This document shows, one piece after another, positions 2,150 to 11,908 of a stretch of 12,027 nt of DNA. This DNA comes from an uncultured Hippea sp. Its GTDB lineage: Bacteria; Campylobacterota_A; Desulfurellia; JAADFJ01. The DNA lies in NCBI GenBank assembly GCA_913009315.1, contig CAJVZA010000061.1, positions 1 to 12,027 of the forward strand. Direction: 5' to 3'. How positions within the stretch are numbered: position 1 is the first letter of the stretch; each line of letters opens with the position of its first letter. Made by a program: the position numbers and the translations under genes. A model generated the notes under the pieces. It did not search any database. It was not told the DNA's origin and was given only the letters and a program-made list of their open reading frames with translations.

Positions 2150-2720
2150 TATTAACTGCGTAAAGAAGAAGATTGATGGGATTATCAAAAAATCGCCTGT
2201 TCCCGAAGATCCAATCCATGCAAAAAACACTTTGGAGTGGCTACTTAAATTAAAGCCTGATGCTGATGAGGCCCTAAAAATAGCTGCTTTAGGTCATGAT
2301 ATTGAAAGAGCTATTAAGGAACAAAAAATAAGACGCAAAAATTACATGAGCTACGATGAATTTAAAAAAGCTCATGCTTTAAATAGTGCCAAAATATTAA
2401 AAGAAATAATGACAATGTGCAATGTAAGAAAAGAATTAGTCGATGATGTCTTTTTTCTTGTAAGCCACCATGAAATAGGAGGCGACAAAAGAGTCGATGT
2501 TTTAAAAGATGCCGACAGCATCTCTTTTTTCCATGTAAACCTGCCCTATTACTTTGTCCGGAATGGCGTAGAAGAGACGAAAAAGAGGTGTTCATGGGGA
2601 TACAAGAAGCTACCCTGCAACCTGCAAGAACTTGCGGTTAAGTTTAACTATAAAGATAAAAAACTTGGGCAACTTGTAATGGCCTGGATTGTGAGAAAGG
2701 GGTCAGGTCTTCATTCTTGA
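2136..2720 (+). CDS. HD-domain phosphohydrolase with no canonical start codon and a 3' end rewritten by an insertion element
   Basis: A metal-dependent HD-superfamily hydrolase; the substrate is unknown. Numbered from an ATA at 2136, the 194 residues contain H28, H54-D55 (GHDIERA), H80, H112 (HHEIGGD) and D125/D127 (LKDADS), a ligand set that fits a two-metal HD site. The only TTG (2232) lies after H28, which would remove the first ligand, and the frame is open back to 2103 without ATG, GTG or TTG. ATA 2136 follows GGGTGGTGG at a plausible distance. ATT 2151, or a +1 frameshift from the upstream gene on the A-run at 2138-2142, are alternatives. The gene overlaps the DIP-phosphate synthase by about 14 nt, suggesting coupling and a role as the phosphatase that pathway needs; this role is inferred. 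The last codons (GSGLHS, stop) come from the inverted repeat of the adjacent element. It is a paralogue of the HD gene at 3855-4472. Confidence 0.7.
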   Translation: MKIDNINCVKKKIDGIIKKSPVPEDPIHAKNTLEWLLKLKPDADEALKIAALGHDIERAIKEQKIRRKNYMSYDEFKKAHALNSAKILKEIMTMCNVRKELVDDVFFLVSHHEIGGDKRVDVLKDADSISFFHVNLPYYFVRNGVEETKKRCSWGYKKLPCNLQELAVKFNYKDKKLGQLVMAWIVRKGSGLHS

Positions 2721-2756: not shown

Positions 2757-3698
2757 CTATACCAATTTCATCTTTCCCTCTATTTCCCCCACTTTATCTT
2801 TTAGTTCTTCATTTTGTCTTATCTTAATAGCAATACGACGGCTTGCCTGGGATACACCGGAAGCTCCAATGCCGAAATAATTGCCTATTTCTTTCAGCAT
2901 TTTATCTGTATGTTTATGGCAAAGATAGATTTTAACCCCTTTAGCTAACGTTCCATTTTCCCTAAAAACTCTATCAACCTCTTTTATTATATCATTAATT
3001 GAAGGTTTATCAGAGAGTTTTTTTAATGCAGGCAATTCATAATCAATATTTTTATTTGTCAAGTATTTATCTTTTATGTTTTCGATAAAATCAGGACTTC
3101 CTAATATGGTTGAGCTTATAGTTTTTTCCATAGGGTTTTTATACTCACTCCCAATCAAATCTTCAACAAAGAGACGGTATCTTTTTTGGGCAGATAAATG
3201 TTTATCGTCAAAATAACTTAATACAAAATCTGTAACAAGCCACTCCGGCGGTTTTTTATACTCTATGTAGTACCTGTAGCTTGACCAAAGATATTCTTCC
3301 GGTTTGCCCACCATTTTAGCTCTTACCGGATTTAGGTGGATATAGCGTGATAGCTCTTTTGCGTATTCGTCTATATTAACAAGAATTGCCTTATATCTTC
3401 CTTGGAAAAGATGTCCCGAGCGTTTATGTTTTATGTTAAAATATGTGGTGTATGCACCGTTAATATGCTGCATTATTTGCGAAATATTTCCTTTCGGTGT
3501 TTCGAGTAGAATGTGATAATGGTTGTTCATAAGGCAAAAAACATGTATCAAAGCGCCATAACGCTTATAAGCCGATTGCAGATATGAGATAAATTTTTCT
3601 TTATCCTTATCACTGTTGTAGATATCTTTTCTTTCGTTGCCGCGCGATGTGATATGATAAAATGCTCCCGGATATAATATTCTTAGTGGTCTTGCCAT
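2757..3698 (-). CDS. REP-associated tyrosine transposase (Y1_Tnp / RAYT family)
   Basis: A single-strand DNA endonuclease/transposase of the IS200-like HUH superfamily, predicted to cut and join REP-type palindromes. The 313 residues open with MARPLRILYPGAFYHITSRGN, the family hallmark. The metal-binding HUH motif is H60-Y61-H62 (MNNHYHILLE), and SRYIHLNPVRA follows, with Y119 the likely nucleophile. The last 65 or so residues (KIYLCHKHTDKMLKEIG through VSQASRRI) resemble the helix-turn-helix DNA-binding domain IV of DnaA, as seen in longer members of this family. I chose ATG 3698 rather than the TTG at 3722 because GAGGGGAAG lies just upstream and the family starts at MARPLR. It has no metabolic link to its neighbours. 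No frameshift or missing catalytic residue is seen. Confidence 0.92.
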   Translation of the reverse strand: MARPLRILYPGAFYHITSRGNERKDIYNSDKDKEKFISYLQSAYKRYGALIHVFCLMNNHYHILLETPKGNISQIMQHINGAYTTYFNIKHKRSGHLFQGRYKAILVNIDEYAKELSRYIHLNPVRAKMVGKPEEYLWSSYRYYIEYKKPPEWLVTDFVLSYFDDKHLSAQKRYRLFVEDLIGSEYKNPMEKTISSTILGSPDFIENIKDKYLTNKNIDYELPALKKLSDKPSINDIIKEVDRVFRENGTLAKGVKIYLCHKHTDKMLKEIGNYFGIGASGVSQASRRIAIKIRQNEELKDKVGEIEGKMKLV

Positions 3699-3759
3699 AA
3701 CTTCCCCTCTCTCGATTATCAATAAATATCATAATTCTTATATACTAGAAAGTTTTATA

Positions 3760-3854: not shown

Positions 3855-4472
3855 TCACAAAGATTTGCAACGAATGTGCTTATATTTGTGTATAAATTCA
3901 GATGCGAGCTCTTTGGCATAATCAAACGTTATTCTGTTGTATGTCCAATCGAGCTTGTCCGCCACTATCTCTTTAGATGTTCGTTTCACCTGAATCTCTA
4001 AAAAGAAATCTATGTAAGTCTCAAAAAATGCAAGGCTATCCGCATCTTTTAATATGTTTGTTTCAAAATCTCCACCGGTCTCATGATTTCTTATCATCCT
4101 GCAAACCTTTTCGACAAACGATTGATCCATTCCATTCTCAAATAAAAACCGTGAGGCAATCTCGGCGCTTAGCTTCTGATGATACTCTAAAAACTGCTTA
4201 TTTCTAAATCCGTCCTTCTTTTTGCTGTACATCTTGTTGTAGGCATCTTTATCTTTAATAAAAGCCCTCTCGATATCGTGCATCAGCGAAGCCACAAGAA
4301 GTGTATCATCGGCAGATATTCCCGTTTCGTGTTTATGAAGTTTTTCTGCATAAAATTTTGTCATTTTAAGATGTTTTAAAAAGTTTTTCCCCTGCTGATT
4401 GAATCCTGTTTCCGGTCTGCATACCTCTTCGATAAATAATTCAGTTTTTTTCACAATCGAATTATCAGTCAT
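3855..4472 (-). CDS. HD-domain phosphohydrolase, last gene of the aromatic operon
   Basis: A 205-residue HD-superfamily metal hydrolase of unknown substrate. Ligands seen in order are H34, H65-D66 (MHDIERA), H98 (EYHQKLSAEIA), H130 (NHETGGD) and D143/D145 (LKDADS). The same pattern occurs in the HD protein at 2136-2720, with shared blocks HDIERA, HE-x-GGD and LKDADS-x2-FF, so the two are paralogues. No signal peptide or membrane segment is seen. Its ATG overlaps the end of the CoA ligase gene by 8 nt (ATGACTGA), with little Shine-Dalgarno sequence, which suggests translational coupling and a function tied to the pathway. In the Thauera phenylphosphate carboxylase the phosphatase-like delta subunit belongs to the HAD family and is not seen here. 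An HD enzyme acting on a phosphorylated intermediate or stray phosphoester is a guess consistent with the context. Confidence 0.82.
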   Translation of the reverse strand: MTDNSIVKKTELFIEEVCRPETGFNQQGKNFLKHLKMTKFYAEKLHKHETGISADDTLLVASLMHDIERAFIKDKDAYNKMYSKKKDGFRNKQFLEYHQKLSAEIASRFLFENGMDQSFVEKVCRMIRNHETGGDFETNILKDADSLAFFETYIDFFLEIQVKRTSKEIVADKLDWTYNRITFDYAKELASEFIHKYKHIRCKSL

Positions 4473-6099
4473 TGAACTTAGTGCTTGCTTCTTTTCTCAA
4501 AGCGGCTTTATTTACTTTTCCCGAATCACCAACCGTCGGGAAACGGTCAACAATTTCAAGATATTCGGGGATCTTATATTTTGCCACTTTTTTAGCAATT
4601 AGAAAATCTTTAATTTGATTGAGTGAGATTGCAGTGTCTTTTTTGGGTATAACGAAGGCAACAGCCCGTTCTCCATACTCCGCATCAGGAATTCCGATAA
4701 CCGACACACTGGCAATCGCCGGATGCTCATTAAGCAAACCTTCAATCTCAGGAGGATAAATATTCTGCCCGCCTCTGATTATCATATCTTTTTTTCTACC
4801 CATTATCCACAGATTATCATTATCAAACTTGACAAGATCCCCTGTTGTCGCCCATCCGTTCAGATCGAAAACTTTCATAGTCGCATCAATATCTCTATGA
4901 TATCCGGCGGGTGAATTGGGTCCTCTGAACCAGAGTTCGCCTACCTCGTCTTTCAGTAAATTACCTTCACTGTCCAAAATTTTTATCTTATTGCCCGGAA
5001 GCGGCTTTCCAACCGTTCTTCTTCTTATATCAGGCGTGTCATCGACACTGCAGCCTGAGATCGATCCTACATCCTGAGTTCCAAGATCACTCGTTATGAC
5101 AGCATTCATTCTTCTTTCCACCTCGACTGCTATCTGAGGAGACAGATATCCGCCGGCAGATCTGATAAATCGCAGTGACGATAAATCGTATTTTTCGATA
5201 TCTGCGGCCAGCATACGAACGATATGCGTCGGCACCACTCCGATTGCCGTACATCGTTCCCGTTCTATGGTTTCCAGCGCCGAAGCAGGCGAGAACTCTT
5301 CAAGCAGGACAATCTTTGCGCCCACTATGGGTGCCGCAAAATAGGTAAGCGTTCCGCCTGCCCCTCCGGCATGCGGCGCAATTGCCATAACCGTATCATC
5401 TTTTGTCAATCTCCATAGTTCGGTTCGTGCCTTAGATGTGCATAATCTTGGTGCTATATTCCATTCAACCATTTTAGGAAGACCGGTTGAACCGCTTGTA
5501 GAAGTAAGGAATGCCGTATCGGTAAACGGATTAAAACGTCTGTTTTTAAACTCATCAAGATTCACTTGCTCCTGCGATTGCGCTATTTTTATCAATGAAT
5601 GAACTTTATTATCTTTATCGGGATAGTCTTGATCAAGCAGATAGATCAATTTTATCGAACTATGTTTACGATTCAGTTCTTCAAACATATCGAGATAATT
5701 AAAATCACGATATATATGCGGAATTACAACCGCTTTTGCCTGGGTTTTATCAAGCATGAAATCAAGTTCTTTATGTCTCAAATATGGATAAACGGAAAGC
5801 GATATGAGTCCTGCACGCTCAGAGGCTATTCTTGCCAAAAATCCATATACAGTGTTTGGAGTCTGAATTATAATTCTATCATCTTTTTGAAGACCAAGTT
5901 TTATAAAATTTGCTGCAATTTGGTCTGTCATAATTTTGGCCTCTTTCCAGGTCAATCTGCAGGCAGAATCAACCAATGCCGTTTTATCCGGTATTGTTTC
6001 AGCATTTTTCTCCCAAAACTCGTAAAATGTTTCATCGGTCCAGTAGCCGTTGTCAACAAACTCATTGATCATTTTGTCAGTATATCTAACAACTCTCAT
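4465..6099 (-). CDS. AMP-forming acyl/aryl-CoA ligase (probable aromatic acid-CoA ligase)
   Basis: A 544-residue member of the ANL adenylate-forming superfamily: carboxylate + ATP to acyl-AMP, then thioester with CoA. Visible motifs are the P-loop TSTSGSTGLPK (199-209); a degenerate Mg/ATP motif SDLGTQDVG where most relatives have YG-x-TE; the hinge-region block WATTGDL, GRKKDMIIRGGQNIYPPEIE; and the C-terminal catalytic lysine K528 in SGKVNKAAL. The N-terminal stretch (GYWTDETFYEFW) recalls aryl-acid ligases of the EntE/DhbE and benzoate-CoA type. The start ATG 6099 has GAGGAG about 9 nt upstream. Downstream of phenylphosphate synthase, UbiD and UbiX genes, the expected substrate is 4-hydroxybenzoate or a related acid, forming the CoA ester for benzoyl-CoA-type degradation. 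Specificity cannot be read from sequence; a general fatty or alicyclic acid ligase is the alternative. Confidence 0.85.
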   Translation of the reverse strand: MRVVRYTDKMINEFVDNGYWTDETFYEFWEKNAETIPDKTALVDSACRLTWKEAKIMTDQIAANFIKLGLQKDDRIIIQTPNTVYGFLARIASERAGLISLSVYPYLRHKELDFMLDKTQAKAVVIPHIYRDFNYLDMFEELNRKHSSIKLIYLLDQDYPDKDNKVHSLIKIAQSQEQVNLDEFKNRRFNPFTDTAFLTSTSGSTGLPKMVEWNIAPRLCTSKARTELWRLTKDDTVMAIAPHAGGAGGTLTYFAAPIVGAKIVLLEEFSPASALETIERERCTAIGVVPTHIVRMLAADIEKYDLSSLRFIRSAGGYLSPQIAVEVERRMNAVITSDLGTQDVGSISGCSVDDTPDIRRRTVGKPLPGNKIKILDSEGNLLKDEVGELWFRGPNSPAGYHRDIDATMKVFDLNGWATTGDLVKFDNDNLWIMGRKKDMIIRGGQNIYPPEIEGLLNEHPAIASVSVIGIPDAEYGERAVAFVIPKKDTAISLNQIKDFLIAKKVAKYKIPEYLEIVDRFPTVGDSGKVNKAALRKEASTKFND

Positions 6100-6102
6100 A
6101 AA

Positions 6103-6234
6103 TTAGTTTCTCCTCGATAGTTTTTTTATATCTTCTATTAATAGCATCATCGGAAATACGATTTCATGCAGATAAAAACCCGACTCTACCTGCAAAGCTG
6201 TTTCATCGGCCCAATCAACATATAAAACAGCATA
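6103..6234 (-). other. short protein-like open frame without a clear start, between ubiX and the CoA ligase
   Basis: The only sizeable gap in the operon, about 150 nt, contains a 43-codon frame from just after a TGA (6235-6237) to a TAA at 6103-6105, ending 3 nt before the ligase ATG. It reads in part YVDWADETALQ and LHEIVFPMMLLIEDIKKL, with a balanced composition that looks coded. There is no ATG or GTG near its head; TTG 6195 or the paired ATGs at 6150/6147 could start a very short peptide. It may be the tail of a decayed gene, a small leader peptide, or chance. I recognise no family. Confidence 0.3.
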
Positions 6235-6248
6235 TCAGATAACAAGTT

Positions 6249-6803
6249 CTATTCCCATCTTTTAAACAGATTATGGTCTATGCCGAATAGATCAAGAATC
6301 TTGCCGATTGTCTGATCGATTATGTCATCTATACTTTTCGGTTTGTGGTAAAATGACGGAACCGGCGGAACAATTATACCGCCAATCCTCGTAACTTTTG
6401 CCATCAGTTCGATATGACCGAGATGAAGCGGTGTTTCTCTAACCATAAGTATCAATTTTCTTCTCTCTTTCAGGCACACATCAGCTGCCCTTATCATAAG
6501 GTTGTCGCTGTATGAATTTGCGATACCCGATAATGTTTTTATCGAGCAGGGTACAATGATCATTCCTTCCGTTATGAACGATCCGCTTGCAATCGGAGCA
6601 GCAATATCATCGTTTGAGTGACAAAATTTAGCCAATGATTTGATTTTCTCATAATTAATATCATGCTCATATCCTGCTATCTTTTTTGCCGCTTCGGTAA
6701 CAATCAGATGCACCTCGATTCCTTTGCTTCTCAATACTTCAAGCATTCTTATTCCGTATATCACTCCCGATGCCCCCGATATCCCAACTATTATCCTTTT
6801 CAT
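6249..6803 (-). CDS. ubiX: flavin prenyltransferase UbiX (prenylated-FMN synthase)
   Basis: Joins a dimethylallyl phosphate-derived unit to reduced FMN, making the prenylated FMN cofactor needed by UbiD enzymes; it is a soluble flavoprotein. The 184-residue protein starts MKRIIVGISGASGVIYG, the FMN-binding glycine-rich loop. Other family blocks follow: MIIVPCSIKTLSGIA, DNLMIRAADVCLKERRKLIL, RETPLHLGHIELM, GGIIVPPVPSFYHKP and a C-terminal KILDLFGI. I chose ATG 6803 because the family begins there. A TTG at 6836 overlapping the ubiD stop would add 11 unconserved residues and is the alternative, since ATG 6803 has no strong Shine-Dalgarno sequence. Its place directly behind a ubiD gene is the usual pairing and argues that its product serves that decarboxylase rather than ubiquinone synthesis. 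Confidence 0.95.
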   Translation of the reverse strand: MKRIIVGISGASGVIYGIRMLEVLRSKGIEVHLIVTEAAKKIAGYEHDINYEKIKSLAKFCHSNDDIAAPIASGSFITEGMIIVPCSIKTLSGIANSYSDNLMIRAADVCLKERRKLILMVRETPLHLGHIELMAKVTRIGGIIVPPVPSFYHKPKSIDDIIDQTIGKILDLFGIDHNLFKRWE

Positions 6804-6832
6804 GCTGTTATTTTCAGAATCGTTTACCGGTT

Positions 6833-8248
6833 TCAAATTCCATAATTATCCCAATTTTTTCTTACAACCTCTGCAGTCTTTTTATCCAGAAAAATCTCCT
6901 TCGGTTTTCTTTTCCATTCATACGGTACGCAGGCATCCATTATAATTCTTGAAACTATCTCTCTGTTTTCAATCGGAAGCGCAGGGTCCAGAGGAGTAGA
7001 TCTGCCTCTGTTGATAATCTGCGTATCTCTTCTCGGATCAAATCTCACCGATAACGCCCAGAACACTTTGTCCCAATCATCGGCAGCTATATCCTCATCG
7101 ACAACAATGACTCCCTTCAAGCCGTAGTGCCCCGTTGTCGTGGAGATAACTGCCGTGCCTATCTGATTAGCATGCCCCGGATACATCTGTTTTACAGAAA
7201 CTATCGCCCAAAATCTTCCTGTTGATTCCGGAGGAATATAAACCGACTGAATTCCGGGTATCTTCATATTTTCCAGATCCGTCCATAAGGTTGCGGTTCT
7301 GTTCAACGATTGAATCATGTGCGTATCTGTTATCGGTTTTCCTACCATTGTCGACCAGAATATATAATCGCTTCTCGTATACACTCTTTTAACATCAAGC
7401 CACGGTTTCGGCCATTCATCACTCTTTTTACCCGAATAATAGCCTGTATATTCGCCCAGCGGCCCTTCCTGCCTGAATTTTTCAGGATCCGTTTCGATTT
7501 CACCTTCCAATACAATTTCCGCATTTTTATCAAACGGAAGACCCGTATGTTCGGATTCAATAATTTCGATCGGCTCCTTTCGCAATGTTCCCATTATGTC
7601 AAACTCCGATATACCTGCGGAAATCAGGGCGGATCCGGTTAAAAATCCGAGCGGATCACCGCCGATAACCATAAGAGCCGGCATCTTTTTCCCCATTTTT
7701 TGGTATTTTTTCAACATGAAATCGGCATGTTTACCCTTGATTATCTGTATTCCGCAGCTTTTTTCATCAAGAACCTGCATCCTGTATGTTCCGCAATTGA
7801 CCCATCCGGTTTCAGGATCTTTTGTCACAAGATAATGCGTTGTGCCGATAAATCGTCCGCCATCTCCGGGGTACATAAAAGGAACCGGAAAATCGAACAG
7901 ATTCACATTGTTGCCTTCCACGATTCTATCCAATATCGGTCCGGTTTTCACCTTCACAGGCGGAATGTGCTTCTTTGTTGACAGCTTCATCCATTCACGG
8001 GACATCTCACACATACTGGTTCCCGGTTTCATTCCGAGTGCTATCGCAAGGCGTTCTTTAGACGAGAATGCACCTGTTAAAACAGGGTTTTTATAATCCT
8101 TTATATTCTCAAACAACAATGCATATCTATCTTTCTCATCGTTCACAATCGATACATGAGAAAGCTCCAGATTCCAATCAATCTCTTTTTTTACCCTTTT
8201 CAGTTCATTCGCCTTTTCACATTTTTCTATAAACTCTCGTAAATCCAA
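6833..8248 (-). CDS. ubiD: UbiD-family prenylated-FMN-dependent (de)carboxylase, candidate phenylphosphate carboxylase
   Basis: A 471-residue UbiD-type enzyme that reversibly adds or removes CO2 at an aromatic or unsaturated carbon. The cofactor and catalytic residues are all present: N151 and R156 in NCGTYRMQV, H174 in GKHADF, and E261/E266 in EGPLGEYTGYY. Their spacing matches N168, R173, H191, E277 and E282 of fungal Fdc1. The length is near that of the alpha and beta subunits of Thauera phenylphosphate carboxylase. It starts with TTG 8248 behind a perfect AGGAGG five bases upstream. The gene lies 13 nt after ppsB and just before ubiX, so the likely job is carboxylation of phenylphosphate to 4-hydroxybenzoate. 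Only one UbiD subunit is visible, against two in Thauera. A 4-hydroxybenzoate or other aryl decarboxylase is the alternative. Confidence 0.92.
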   Translation of the reverse strand: MDLREFIEKCEKANELKRVKKEIDWNLELSHVSIVNDEKDRYALLFENIKDYKNPVLTGAFSSKERLAIALGMKPGTSMCEMSREWMKLSTKKHIPPVKVKTGPILDRIVEGNNVNLFDFPVPFMYPGDGGRFIGTTHYLVTKDPETGWVNCGTYRMQVLDEKSCGIQIIKGKHADFMLKKYQKMGKKMPALMVIGGDPLGFLTGSALISAGISEFDIMGTLRKEPIEIIESEHTGLPFDKNAEIVLEGEIETDPEKFRQEGPLGEYTGYYSGKKSDEWPKPWLDVKRVYTRSDYIFWSTMVGKPITDTHMIQSLNRTATLWTDLENMKIPGIQSVYIPPESTGRFWAIVSVKQMYPGHANQIGTAVISTTTGHYGLKGVIVVDEDIAADDWDKVFWALSVRFDPRRDTQIINRGRSTPLDPALPIENREIVSRIIMDACVPYEWKRKPKEIFLDKKTAEVVRKNWDNYGI

Positions 8249-8261
8249 AAAATCCTCCTGT

Positions 8262-9329
8262 CTAACCGGCTTTTATGCCGCTAATAAGATTATTCAATAT
8301 AATATTCATGACATCTGCAGGCTTACCTGCTTTACCCGACATATCCTTTTTCTTATTCCATATCGATTCAGGACGAACCTGAAGCACAATCACATTTTCA
8401 GGAAACGGCAGATCTTCATCTATCCCGAACTCTATATCGTATGCTTTACCGTAGTAGTTTTCTATCTTTACCGCAGTTTCAGATAAATATGTCAGTTCCT
8501 GATTTGTCAAGGCAGATTTTTTTCTGAGTTCATCGTCCACATCTATCTTTTTTATATCGCTCCCGTATGTCTCGTATACACATTTTATCTCTTTACTGCC
8601 TATCTTAGTCTTTATTAACTCAAGTGTAACTTTGTCAATAAGATATGTGTCGGGGGTAACGAGACCTGAGACTACGGCTTCACCCAGCCCATAGCTTGCA
8701 TCAATGGAGATTTTGGAAAAATCTCCATTGATAGGGTTCAGCGTAAAAATAACTCCCGATACCTTTGAATGGACCATCTTTGGAATACCCACGCCAATAT
8801 TAAACAATACGCTCATGTCTCTATTGACACGATAATGAATCGCTTCCACATTGTATGAACTCGACCAGCATCTCTTTATATAGTGAATAAGATCTTTATC
8901 ACCTCTGATGTTGAGATATGTCTCCATCTGACCCGGCATGCTTACTCCGCCGCTTGATCTTACCGCCGCAGGAACAGCATCAAGATTGCATTTTTCGCAT
9001 AATCTATGATAATTCTCCAAAATATCCTCTTCGATTTCTGATGGAATGTCAGCTGATTCGATCTCGCTCATAATAGCTTTACTGAGTTTTTTTATATTTT
9101 CATCAGTAGCTTCACCATTCTTCTTCACAAGAGTCTCAATTTTCGAGCGTATGCCTGTTTTTTCAATAAAGTCGTGATTCGCATGAATGGTTATTGCAAA
9201 GCCGGGACTAATAGGAATCCCGGCATGCAGCATCTCTCCAAGATTTGCATTTTTTTTACCCACCAATCCGTAATCGCTGCCTCGCAGTTCATCATACCAA
9301 ATAGTGTATAGCTGATTTAATTCTCTCAT
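8262..9329 (-). CDS. ppsB: phenylphosphate synthase-like subunit B (ATP-grasp, PEP synthase N-terminal type)
   Basis: Equivalent to the roughly 40-kDa protein 2 of phenylphosphate synthase: it uses MgATP to phosphorylate the histidine of subunit A, giving AMP and Pi overall. The 355 residues match the ATP-binding half of PEP synthase: GKKNANLGEM (24-33), GIPISPGFAI, AVRSSGG (122-128), SMPGQMETYLN (130-140), IKRCWSSSYN, IHYR, SGVIFTLNP, YGLGEAVVSGLVTPDTY, YDIEF (297-301) and LQVRPES (316-322). There is no phosphohistidine or PEP-binding domain; those functions are split off into the preceding gene. The loop between RSSGG and PGQ is shorter than in true PEP synthases, recalling pyruvate phosphate dikinase (SMPG). 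The ATG has GAGG five bases upstream, and the gap to ppsA is 19 nt. The coding sequence contains a perfect 15-bp hairpin at 8700-8732. Phenol as substrate is inferred from context. Confidence 0.87.
   Translation of the reverse strand: MRELNQLYTIWYDELRGSDYGLVGKKNANLGEMLHAGIPISPGFAITIHANHDFIEKTGIRSKIETLVKKNGEATDENIKKLSKAIMSEIESADIPSEIEEDILENYHRLCEKCNLDAVPAAVRSSGGVSMPGQMETYLNIRGDKDLIHYIKRCWSSSYNVEAIHYRVNRDMSVLFNIGVGIPKMVHSKVSGVIFTLNPINGDFSKISIDASYGLGEAVVSGLVTPDTYLIDKVTLELIKTKIGSKEIKCVYETYGSDIKKIDVDDELRKKSALTNQELTYLSETAVKIENYYGKAYDIEFGIDEDLPFPENVIVLQVRPESIWNKKKDMSGKAGKPADVMNIILNNLISGIKAG
8700..8732. repeat. perfect 15-bp inverted repeat with 3-nt loop inside ppsB
   Basis: Arms ATCAATGGAGATTTT (8700-8714) and its exact reverse complement (8718-8732) flank a GGA loop. 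In the mRNA this would be a long stable stem over residues INGDFSKISID. It has no U-run, so it is not a standard terminator. It may affect translation or mRNA processing, or may arise by chance from the codons used. Confidence 0.75.
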
Positions 9330-9348
9330 ATATTCCTCTATCTATAAT

Positions 9349-11190
9349 TCATCTGCTTTCAACTATCTTGACTGTTCCTTCATTGCCGTTGATTCTTATC
9401 AGATCACCTGTTTTGATAACTGAGGTAGCATTTCCGGTTCCAACCACAGTAGGAAGTCCATACTCCCTGCAAACTATAGCTGCATGGCACATAGGCCCTC
9501 CAACATCCGTAACCGCTCCTGTAATCTTTGTAAAAACAGGTGCCCAGCTTGGTGATGTAGTAGGCGCCACCATAATTTCACCCTTTTCGAGCTGATCTAA
9601 CTGCTCAACCGTTCTAATAACCCTCGCCTTTCCTTCAACTATACCTGCCGACCCCGGAGATCCGTGAAGCTCGGTTATCTTTTCAGAAGTTGTGCCTTCA
9701 AGTGAACGAAGCCAATTTTTCAGAACACCTGTAGTAACACCCCACAACACTATGGTAAACGGCTCGTTTACAACCTCAGGCGGTGTTCCCAATGCAGGCG
9801 GCGGAGTCCATTCCTGAAATTTCTTTATTATAACTTTACGGTTTTTAATTTTCTCAGGCCAATATGTTCTTCCGGCAGGTATAATGCCGGTTGCCCATGC
9901 ACGCACCATATCATCTATTAGTGATTTTATCTCGAACCTGTTTAGATACCAAATATCTTCAGCATCCTCTATTATTTTGTTGTTTGCAAAAATCTTTGCC
10001 AGTTCTCTCATTTTTCTCCAGAATACCGAATGAAACCAATTCTCTACATAAAACATGTGATTTTCCACATAAGGAAAAACTCTTCTTGCTATTTTAAGTG
10101 TTTCCTCAAAAGCGTTTCTCTGATCTTCGTTTTTTATAAGATTTATATATTTTTCTACGATTTCATCGCGCTCTTTTATCAATTTTTCCGTTGATCTCGA
10201 CGGATTTTTGCCCTCTTTGATAACTTCAATATACATATTGATTGACGAGAGCGGAATATCAAGGTTGTCGTTCCAGCTTATATGATGGTGGTACCATCCT
10301 GTTCCGGTAGATATATAAAACCACGGATATCTTGCCTTTTCAAGTGCATTGAGCCAGCTTATTCCTTTATCGCTCTTTTTCAGCTCTTTAGCGAGAGTAT
10401 CAAATTTTTTTTGCGACACTATGAGCGAATCGATTTCAAGTGTGACTGCAAGTTTGGCAAGTTTAATCAGTTCCTCATCGGGTCTATACATAACAGTATC
10501 GATACCTGATACCATTTTTGTAAGATTATGCATCGGAATATCGGGAAATACTTCGTTTGCAGTGTTGATAAAAGTCACATAAGCAGCGTATCCGAGATTG
10601 AGCATCTCGAAATGATACTGCCAGATCTTGAATCCCATGTTTATCAGCTCGTCATATTTTATACCGAGATTATATCCGCTGCTTAAACCTTTGCTGTCGA
10701 ATACGATACTTTCATCCTCTATTTCCGGCAGATCCGGAAAAGAAATATTCTCAAGTTCGACTATAAGTTCTTTTGTTTTATCGACCCACTTATCGTAGAT
10801 CTTGTCCCAGTTTTCATAATAATATCCCGCCCTTTTCTGAAACAGCGGAATTCTTGACTCGATCTCCTTTGGATCTGCGATTCCGATAGGAGTTATATAA
10901 ACATATCCATTGACAATTCTGTGATCTATGCCCTTTGCCGGAGGCACCATAAAAACTCTCGTATTGTATTGAGATAATGCCAGATACCATGCCTCATCCC
11001 ATATAAGATCAAACGGATAGTGAGGTTCGGGATAGTGAAGCCCGTCATAAAACCATAACTGGCTGCTCTCATACTCCATCCTTTCCTTATCTGTCTTTGA
11101 AAACTGATAATAAAAAGGATACATCTCCTCCCATCCCTCTGTTCCTAAAATCGGTTTTACTTCATGCGGATCTAAAAACTTTTTCGCCAT
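9349..11190 (-). CDS. ppsA: phenylphosphate synthase-like subunit A (phosphohistidine swivelling-domain subunit)
   Basis: Equivalent to the 70-kDa protein 1 of Thauera phenylphosphate synthase, which passes a phosphoryl group from a phosphohistidine to phenol. The 613-residue protein has a long N-terminal part (1 to about 500) rich in W, Y and H that probably binds the phenolic substrate. A PEP synthase-like swivelling domain follows (about 507-613): ELHGSPGSAGIVEGKARV, then GGPMCHAAIVCREYGLPTVVG with the catalytic His at 569, and NGNEGTV. From recall, the Thauera phosphohistidine is also His569, so both length and register agree. I chose ATG 11190, preceded by AAAGGGGGG, over a GTG at 11211. 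This is not a PEP synthase despite the symbol: no PEP/pyruvate-binding barrel is present and the ATP domain is in a separate downstream gene. Phenol is the likely substrate; cresol, catechol or another phenolic is possible. Confidence 0.87.
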   Translation of the reverse strand: MAKKFLDPHEVKPILGTEGWEEMYPFYYQFSKTDKERMEYESSQLWFYDGLHYPEPHYPFDLIWDEAWYLALSQYNTRVFMVPPAKGIDHRIVNGYVYITPIGIADPKEIESRIPLFQKRAGYYYENWDKIYDKWVDKTKELIVELENISFPDLPEIEDESIVFDSKGLSSGYNLGIKYDELINMGFKIWQYHFEMLNLGYAAYVTFINTANEVFPDIPMHNLTKMVSGIDTVMYRPDEELIKLAKLAVTLEIDSLIVSQKKFDTLAKELKKSDKGISWLNALEKARYPWFYISTGTGWYHHHISWNDNLDIPLSSINMYIEVIKEGKNPSRSTEKLIKERDEIVEKYINLIKNEDQRNAFEETLKIARRVFPYVENHMFYVENWFHSVFWRKMRELAKIFANNKIIEDAEDIWYLNRFEIKSLIDDMVRAWATGIIPAGRTYWPEKIKNRKVIIKKFQEWTPPPALGTPPEVVNEPFTIVLWGVTTGVLKNWLRSLEGTTSEKITELHGSPGSAGIVEGKARVIRTVEQLDQLEKGEIMVAPTTSPSWAPVFTKITGAVTDVGGPMCHAAIVCREYGLPTVVGTGNATSVIKTGDLIRINGNEGTVKIVESR

Positions 11191-11263
11191 TTTAACCCCC
11201 CTTTTTTTCACTCATTGTACACATCATTAGAATCGTATTTAATGTGCAGCATCAGTTATTAAT

Positions 11264-11908
11264 TTAAAATGTTATCCATCTCGGCTTTTCGAATCTTTCT
11301 GTCGAACGCAAAATCTTACTTGAATAATCGGTTATAATCTCTTTTTTTAAAAGCTTTTCCATCTCTCTGAAATCTTCATTGTTCATCAATCTTGCTATGT
11401 CATAAGGATCCTTAAAACTCATCTCAAGCAGATAATCCGAAAATCCGCCATACAAAATATGCCACTCTTCGGTAAGTTCAACGAAATCAATTTTGTCTAT
11501 TATTTCAATTGCTTTTCTTATAAATGCACGATATGACTCTTTTTTCTCAGGTTTTACCGTATAATAATGATTCCATTTCCATATCCCTTCCTGTATCTTG
11601 TACTTTTTTAAATCTATTCTACCTGTCGATATTGCAAGCAAACTCCTCTTATTATCCACATAATTCAGCAATTCATTATTTAAGTTTATGAAATTCTCAT
11701 TATGTACGCATTCATTTATCGTACTTAAATCGTTAGCGGTAAAACATGCAATGGTCGATGGGCCCACGCCCACCTCGACATAATATCCGCCGACAATTTC
11801 CAATCCTGCAACTTTAGCGCCCGGATTGTATTTATTTATAACAAATGAGGAATATTCGTCTTCTTTTGATCTGTCTATATCCCAATACTGAACGTATAAA
11901 ACATTCAT
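11264..11908 (-). CDS. unknown protein with two tandem repeats, possibly a ferredoxin-like (dimeric alpha/beta-barrel) fold; first gene of the aromatic operon
   Basis: I do not recognise a named family. The 214 residues form two related halves, about 1-97 and 110-206. The sequence KEDEYSSFV matches KKESYRAFI, GGYYVEVG matches EEWHILYGG, HNENFINLNNELL matches NNEDFREMEKLL, and each half ends STGR / STER. Each half begins with an aromatic-rich strand and a helix, consistent with a fused pair of ferredoxin-like modules, as in small aromatic-binding or monooxygenase-like dimeric barrels; the fold is inferred. There is no signal peptide or membrane segment. The ATG has AAGGGGG four bases upstream. 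It is the promoter-proximal gene, 73 bp before ppsA, with a candidate promoter at 11958-11985. It occupies the operon without an obvious counterpart in the classical phenol cluster; a substrate-binding or accessory role, perhaps in place of CBS-domain PpsC, is speculative. Confidence 0.8.
   Translation of the reverse strand: MNVLYVQYWDIDRSKEDEYSSFVINKYNPGAKVAGLEIVGGYYVEVGVGPSTIACFTANDLSTINECVHNENFINLNNELLNYVDNKRSLLAISTGRIDLKKYKIQEGIWKWNHYYTVKPEKKESYRAFIRKAIEIIDKIDFVELTEEWHILYGGFSDYLLEMSFKDPYDIARLMNNEDFREMEKLLKKEIITDYSSKILRSTERFEKPRWITF

Follow-up and report, generated by a model that had tools for sequence, protein, structure and literature searches.

The window analyzed here is a stretch of 12,027 bases, the entire contig CAJVZA010000061.1 from the small draft genome of an uncultured Hippea sp. 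It carries on its minus strand (11908-3855) an operon of seven tightly packed genes that would activate phenol by way of phenylphosphate. In the 5' to 3' direction the genes are ORF1, ppsA, ppsB, a UbiD gene, ubiX, an AMP-forming coenzyme A (CoA) ligase gene and an HD gene, as follows:

11264..11908, minus strand: ORF1, tandem dimeric alpha/beta-barrel protein of 214 amino acids, proposed alternative phenylphosphate synthase component (internal duplication, AlphaFold2 model, ppsA/ppsB linkage)
9349..11190, minus strand: PpsA (phenylphosphate synthase alpha), with phosphohistidine mobile domain (PEP-utilizers domain, H576)
8262..9329, minus strand: PpsB (phenylphosphate synthase beta), ATP-grasp PPDK_N subunit (PF01326, E 6e-88)
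6833..8248, minus strand: PpcB-type UbiD (de)carboxylase, presumed to depend on prenylated flavin mononucleotide (prFMN) (TIGR02724 phenyl_P_beta score)
6249..6836, minus strand: UbiX flavin prenyltransferase, which makes prFMN (NF004685, TIGR00421)
6100..6248, no strand: 149-bp gap between ubiX and the ligase gene, where one sister genome (G002) and Desulfobacterota relatives have a phenol-type outer-membrane channel gene
4465..6099, minus strand: AMP-forming CoA ligase, presumed 4-hydroxybenzoate-CoA ligase (PF00501, E 5e-59; PF13193)
3855..4472, minus strand: HD/DUF4202 metal-dependent phosphohydrolase (PF13875, E 6e-13; PF01966, E 1e-8)

Gene content and conservation of the operon

Along the operon the intergenic distances were 73, 19, 13, -4, 149 and -8 bases, a spacing like that of a single predicted transcription unit. 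The reading frame of ppsA is listed from a GTG at 11211, and its true start is likely the ATG at 11190. A preliminary description of the window had proposed a route from phenol to an aryl-CoA whose genes are bracketed by two extra ones; all seven genes were confirmed at the stated positions, with fitting Pfam or NCBIfam domains in all but ORF1, ORF1 being the first and the HD gene the last.

In PpsA, the Pfam PEP-utilizers domain (PF00391) covered residues 542-612 (E 1e-24), and H576, within GGPMCHAAIVCRE of the PEP-utiliser motif, was invariant. The protein was 55-56% identical to PpsA of Azoarcus KH32C, and PpsB was 39% identical to its KH32C counterpart. Together they show the domain organization of phenylphosphate synthase, that is, a mobile domain with the catalytic His and a separate PPDK_N subunit, and would carry out the ATP-dependent phosphorylation of phenol. 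The UbiD protein contained the Pfam N, Rift and C domains, and is not a generic member of its family: it scored above the NCBIfam equivalog cut-off for PpcB (TIGR02724, 588.9 bits vs. 468.95), was 55% identical to PpcB of the KH32C phenol operon and kept R156, E261 and E266 invariant where the Arg/Glu/Glu triad of UbiD is expected. UbiX exceeded the cut-offs of NF004685 (275 bits vs. 188) and TIGR00421 (263 bits vs. 109), matched the Pfam flavoprotein family and was 58% identical to the KH32C protein, while ligases 58-64% identical to that of the window were found within pps clusters of other phyla.

The genomes compared within the genus were that of the window (G000) and two sisters, G001 (JAADFJ01) and G002, all of them drafts (completeness 88, 88 and 94%). 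The seven genes lay together on a 37.5-kb contig in G001, and were split across contig ends in G002. Between G000 and G001 the ratio of nonsynonymous to synonymous substitution rates (dN/dS) was 0.04-0.10 in the six genes tested, being lowest for ORF1 (0.038) and 0.090 for the HD gene. These genes are under purifying selection, strongest on ORF1, which is evidence that they are truly coding. In G001 a 13-bp tandem duplication, whether a genuine frameshift or a fault of the assembly, interrupts the UbiD gene (L025:9503-10931). The outer-membrane channel gene of G002 (L133:897-1865; PF13557, E 5e-49) lay between ubiX and the ligase gene, a position at which it was absent in the window and in G001, and an LpdD/PAC-like gene present between ubiD and ubiX in relatives was missing from the window operon.

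ORF1 and its linkage to phenylphosphate synthase genes

No model of Pfam or NCBIfam recognised ORF1 at the E-values reported, a plasmid search gave no match, and a sequence search against solved structures returned matches at chance level only. The tandem repeat noticed in the preliminary description was borne out by the homology of the two half-alignments (hhalign probability 98.8, E 1.2e-16), which points to an internal duplication. The AlphaFold2 model (pLDDT 88.1, pTM 0.82) followed the order b-a-b-b-a-a-b twice, the predicted fold being a fused dimeric alpha/beta barrel of two ferredoxin-like repeats. Compared with the Protein Data Bank (PDB), the model matched 2pgc with a Z of 16.7 (root mean square deviation 3.2 over 193 residues), and many other entries with Z above 12, including fused-barrel enzymes such as coproheme decarboxylases. 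The NIPSNAP family (PF07978) did not match ORF1 of the window and matched two of 12 close relatives weakly (E 0.0009); a distant member, of subfamily 2 and associated with a PpsA of the 27-28% identity type, passed its cut-off (E 3e-7, 31 bits vs. 22.3), which places the ORF1 family in the barrel superfamily. A haem-binding ORF1, considered because of the chlorite-dismutase-like fold, was rejected: no His is conserved across the family, making a haem site of that kind, or any haem role, unlikely. No link between NIPSNAP and phenylphosphate synthase was found in a literature search. ORF1 is a conserved protein not described before and the new element of the operon.

A PpsA alignment searched against 84,980 species genomes yielded 79 loci, 47 of which had 7 kb or more of sequence beyond ppsA on its downstream side. 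Among these PpsA-derived loci, those of the genus carried ORF1 immediately before ppsA, as did L042, L043, L044, L047, L048, L049, L050, L052, L056 and L065, and this position directly 5' of ppsA was shared by Desulfobacterota loci. PpsB proteins from ORF1 loci were 56-66% identical to that of the window, vs. 33-44% elsewhere, and in the PpsB tree a single clade with support of 100/100 held all ORF1 loci. The ORF1 (11 rows) and PpsC (39 rows) labels did not overlap and each required one change on this tree; the PpsA tree (44 rows, two distant kinase types included) agreed with the split. With the PpsC model, ten ORF1-type genomes gave at most 149 bits (AcuB-like proteins), compared with 340-347 bits in two PpsC-type genomes. 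ORF1 occurred with a PpcB-only carboxylase in L041, L043 and L050 and with the full PpcABCD set in L047 and L056, indicating that it tracks the synthase and is not a substitute for part of the carboxylase.

A search with ORF1, independent of the PpsA seed, covered 395 genomes of the phylum to which the genome of L043 belongs, and family members were present in 45 of them. Thirty loci were fetched; seven were already known and three ended at a contig edge, leaving 20 informative ones, 16 of which had a PpsA- or PpsB-type gene on the same strand within 1.5 kb, in most cases with ORF1 immediately before ppsA. ORF1 loci fell into three kinds according to the identity of their PpsA to that of the window: the phenol type, a type of approximately 40% (L181) with xanthine-oxidase-family genes upstream, and a type of 27-28% (L178, L179, L180, L186 and L189) in which PpsB precedes ORF1 and an HD gene often follows.

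Some Desulfobacterota clusters (L178, L179, L180, L183, L184, L186 and L188) combined a distant PpsA (25-28%), PpsB, an ABM-type barrel and an ORF1-family protein, often with an HD or ARMT1-like phosphatase as well as phytoene-dehydrogenase-like FAD proteins; they may encode an arene or alcohol phosphorylation pathway with an uncharacterised substrate. A plasmid of Thermomicrobium roseum encodes an Lrp/AsnC ligand-binding domain as a separate protein, likewise a dimeric alpha/beta barrel, immediately 5' of the genes for a PpsAB-like kinase pair (L040:5584-5817).

Judged from gene context and relatedness, the operon probably activates phenol, with ORF1 as a proposed alternative third synthase subunit that stands in for PpsC. 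As suggested by the families and their conserved residues, PpsB would phosphorylate His576 in the PpsA mobile domain at the expense of ATP, and the phosphoryl group would then pass to phenol to give phenylphosphate. The single PpcB-type UbiD, with prFMN made by UbiX, would carboxylate phenylphosphate to 4-hydroxybenzoate, and the AMP-forming ligase would then form 4-hydroxybenzoyl-CoA. ORF1 itself would most likely bind the phenolic substrate or product, or dock on PpsA/PpsB.

Several observations weigh against this assignment of ORF1. Its mutual exclusion with PpsC is a single tree split and not many independent replacements; as each label needs only one change, it is strong as a pattern, not as replicated evolution. 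Four of the 20 informative loci (L161, L168, L169 and L172) had neither PpsA nor PpsB beside the ORF1-family gene. Some synthase clades had neither ORF1 nor PpsC, so that a third subunit may be optional, and in T. aromatica this subunit only stimulates the reaction (PMC6114531). Finally, an AcuB-like CBS protein encoded elsewhere in the genome of the window (25% identity) could act in trans; for Desulfatiglans anilini this possibility has been proposed and left undecided. In the literature consulted, the third subunit of the synthase (PpsC/gamma) is said to have no known role.

The same data could be read as an ordinary Geobacter-type phenol operon in which ORF1 is a co-regulated accessory (for detoxification, sensing or substrate binding by its barrel) outside the synthase, an explanation that we consider unlikely, although it deserves attention. 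PpcB-only clusters are common, with published examples (PMC6114531, PMC1924859), proteins of the dimeric alpha/beta-barrel fold serve many unrelated roles, and ORF1-type operons share a LysR neighbour, so that co-regulation alone could explain the linkage. However, ORF1 keeps its place beside PpsA/PpsB even among PpsA types that share no more than 27-40% identity, in clusters whose other genes differ and whose regulators and downstream enzymes vary, and a generic accessory would not be expected to be absent from all PpsC loci.

Downstream route, carboxylase subunits and the HD protein

The genome of the window encodes a bzd-type benzoyl-CoA reductase set, in which BzdO (645 bits) and BzdQ (414 bits) exceed their cut-offs and BzdN falls narrowly short of its own (445 vs. 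454 bits). Had (445 bits), Oah (558 bits) and a member of the benzoate-CoA ligase family (609 bits) are encoded as well, all three over the cut-offs. Degradation of aromatic compounds via benzoyl-CoA is therefore well supported. A second pair of 2-hydroxyacyl-CoA dehydratase/benzoyl-CoA-reductase-like genes was found in L142 (G000:C5) and L143 (G001:C18), in a cluster that also holds an AOR-type oxidoreductase, an indolepyruvate oxidoreductase, a PaaK-like ligase, a thiolase and a DUF35 protein.

Against phenol as the substrate stands the search for 4-hydroxybenzoyl-CoA reductase (TIGR03194, PF02738), which detected its controls and gave no candidate in the three draft genomes of the genus; that it is missing from all three drafts merely by chance is unlikely. 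The route past 4-hydroxybenzoyl-CoA is thus left unexplained, and the true substrate could differ. The operon might act on another arene (an aniline-like amine or a substituted phenol), or its aryl-CoA might be handled without reductive dehydroxylation, in line with the absence from the three genomes of both the reductase large subunit and any molybdopterin-binding subunit of the xanthine oxidase family, and with related kinases that phosphorylate 4-cresol, hydroxyphenylethanones (PMC9618137) or aniline (PMC7500099). We regard this as improbable, given that the UbiD protein lies above the PpcB cut-off and PpsA is 55% identical to the Azoarcus phenol enzyme, that the closest relatives (L043 and L050) carry FAD and 2Fe-2S subunits of the 4-hydroxybenzoyl-CoA reductase type right after the operon, that 4-aminobenzoyl-CoA would require such a reductase too, and that the genomes searched are drafts of 88-94% completeness. 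A wider proposal, which we put forward tentatively and with some doubt, joins two parts: that ORF1 founds an undescribed family of barrel subunits, a general partner of PpsAB-type kinases (phenol, 40% and 27% types), equivalent in function to PpsC and exclusive with it in evolution, and that the genus degrades phenol without a standard 4-hydroxybenzoyl-CoA reductase.

As the preliminary description had noted, PpsC, PpcA and the gamma and delta subunits of the carboxylase were all absent from the window. None of ppcA, ppcC, ppcD and ppsC was present on the 35 kb read of the 37.5-kb contig of G001. In family searches of the genome of the window (approximately 88% complete), the best matches to the PpcA profile were its own UbiD and a second UbiD (193 and 116 bits, respectively, vs. 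a cut-off of 564.6), while PpcD reached 108.9 bits (cut-off 281.95) with a KdsC-like gene in a KdsD/KdsC/LptC-like context and the best match for PpsC was the AcuB-like CBS protein. As far as could be tested, PpsC, PpcA or PpcD elsewhere in the genome were accordingly rejected. PpcC/gamma was found neither in the window nor in L025 and L041 of G001, no genome-wide search having been made for it.

The short carboxylase set is nevertheless not unusual. A PpcB-type UbiD without PpcA was found in 41 of the 47 loci with sufficient downstream sequence, and PpcA in five; only a PpcB homologue has been reported for the Geobacter metallireducens cluster (putative operon Gmet_2100-2102) and for the phe cluster of D. 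anilini (PMC6114531, PMC1924859). The PpcB-only carboxylase is thus a common form, already published and not novel, and the idea of an unusual, reduced carboxylase was abandoned. What stands of the original reading is an operon leading from phenol through phenylphosphate and hydroxybenzoate to an aryl-CoA in the absence of PpsC, PpcA, gamma and delta.

The HD protein exceeded the cut-offs of PF13875 (49 bits vs. 35.1) and PF01966 (36 bits vs. 22), and its metal-ligand residues H65, D66, H98, H130, D143 and D145 were invariant in seven aligned sequences. The expectation that both extra genes would accompany ppsAB in other genomes held for ORF1 but only in part for the HD gene, the DUF4202-like form of which did not occur outside the genus; distant HD relatives recurred beside ORF1 in a minority of other clusters. 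A general role of HD as a PpcD substitute was rejected on these grounds. In G002 the ligase and HD sequences formed one frame of 756 amino acids (L133:1923-4193), approximately 76% identical over both parts, in which the junction is longer by eight bases and has no start for HD in frame. These features led to the rejection of a plain sequencing error as the source of the fusion, an assembly error being not fully excluded. The fusion makes a functional tie of HD to the ligase step plausible, and HD is probably a lineage-specific add-on; that it acts as a metal-dependent phosphohydrolase on phenylphosphate or on a by-product of the ligase would be a guess. DUF4202 was not found in the literature search.

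Replacement of the HAD-type delta subunit by HD, and of the gamma or alpha carboxylase subunit by ORF1, is very improbable. In its favour, PpcD belongs to a family of phosphatases (PMC6114531), HD retains its motifs, no PpcA- or PpcD-level gene was found in the genome and G002 has ligase and HD in one protein; yet ORF1 coexists with complete PpcABCD (L047 and L056), dozens of PpcB-only clusters do without HD or ORF1, and HD is either genus-specific or, in its distant forms, limited to a minority of clusters, one of which (L047) also has PpcD.

Outside the operon, a second HD/DUF4202 gene (2232-2720, plus strand), 29% identical to the operon HD, lies approximately 1.1 kb away from it across a gene whose product resembles IS200/REP-type (Y1) transposases and has a DnaA-like helix-turn-helix at its C terminus (2757-3722, minus strand). 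The latter is directly downstream of the operon HD gene and was not found at the corresponding place in G001. Also on the plus strand, a myo-inositol-1-phosphate synthase (3-791) stands beside a fused nucleotidyltransferase/CDP-alcohol phosphatidyltransferase (788-2149), a pairing known for inositol-phosphodiester compatible solutes or lipids.

Comparison with known systems

ORF1 is a concrete candidate for the third-subunit position, for which no PpsC was found in clusters like the one in D. anilini, and the family, where it stands beside distant PpsAB-like kinases, points to anaerobic pathways that have yet to be characterised. A second gap open to testing is that no 4-hydroxybenzoyl-CoA reductase could be detected, while the rest of the benzoyl-CoA route is complete.

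As regards fold, ORF1 resembles the NIPSNAP/ABM-like dimeric alpha/beta barrels (PDB 2pgc, 3f44 and 3mcs) at 7-16% identity, and differs from these proteins in being linked to PpsAB. As regards the pathway, the operon shares its logic with the PpsABC/PpcABCD system of Thauera and Aromatoleum (reference, plasmid pAZKH of Azoarcus KH32C; identities of 55% for PpsA, 39% for PpsB, 55% for PpcB and 58% for UbiX), but lacks PpsC, PpcA, gamma, delta and a third UbiD, and has ORF1 and HD in addition. The regulators differ as well, with a LysR neighbour in the sister genomes instead of the sigma-54 regulator of the Thauera/Aromatoleum type.

The combination of PpsA, PpsB and a PpcB homologue only is shared with G. 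metallireducens and with the phe cluster of D. anilini (PMC6114531, PMC1924859), for which neither ORF1 nor HD has been reported; the phe cluster includes a 4-hydroxybenzoyl-CoA reductase, whereas none was found in the genus of the window. The ani cluster of D. anilini (phenylphosphoamidate synthase/carboxylase) likewise pairs a two-subunit arene kinase with a UbiD-type carboxylase in the absence of gamma and delta (PMC7500099), but differs in its amine substrate, in the two UbiD-like subunits required in vitro and in a PpsA-like subunit only 27% identical to PpsA. The aerobic phenol kinases HpeHI, AcvAB and CreHI are homologous to PpsAB, with hydroxyphenylethanones or 4-cresol as the compounds phosphorylated (PMC9618137); they belong to distinct clades, and the step that follows is other chemistry instead of a UbiD carboxylase.

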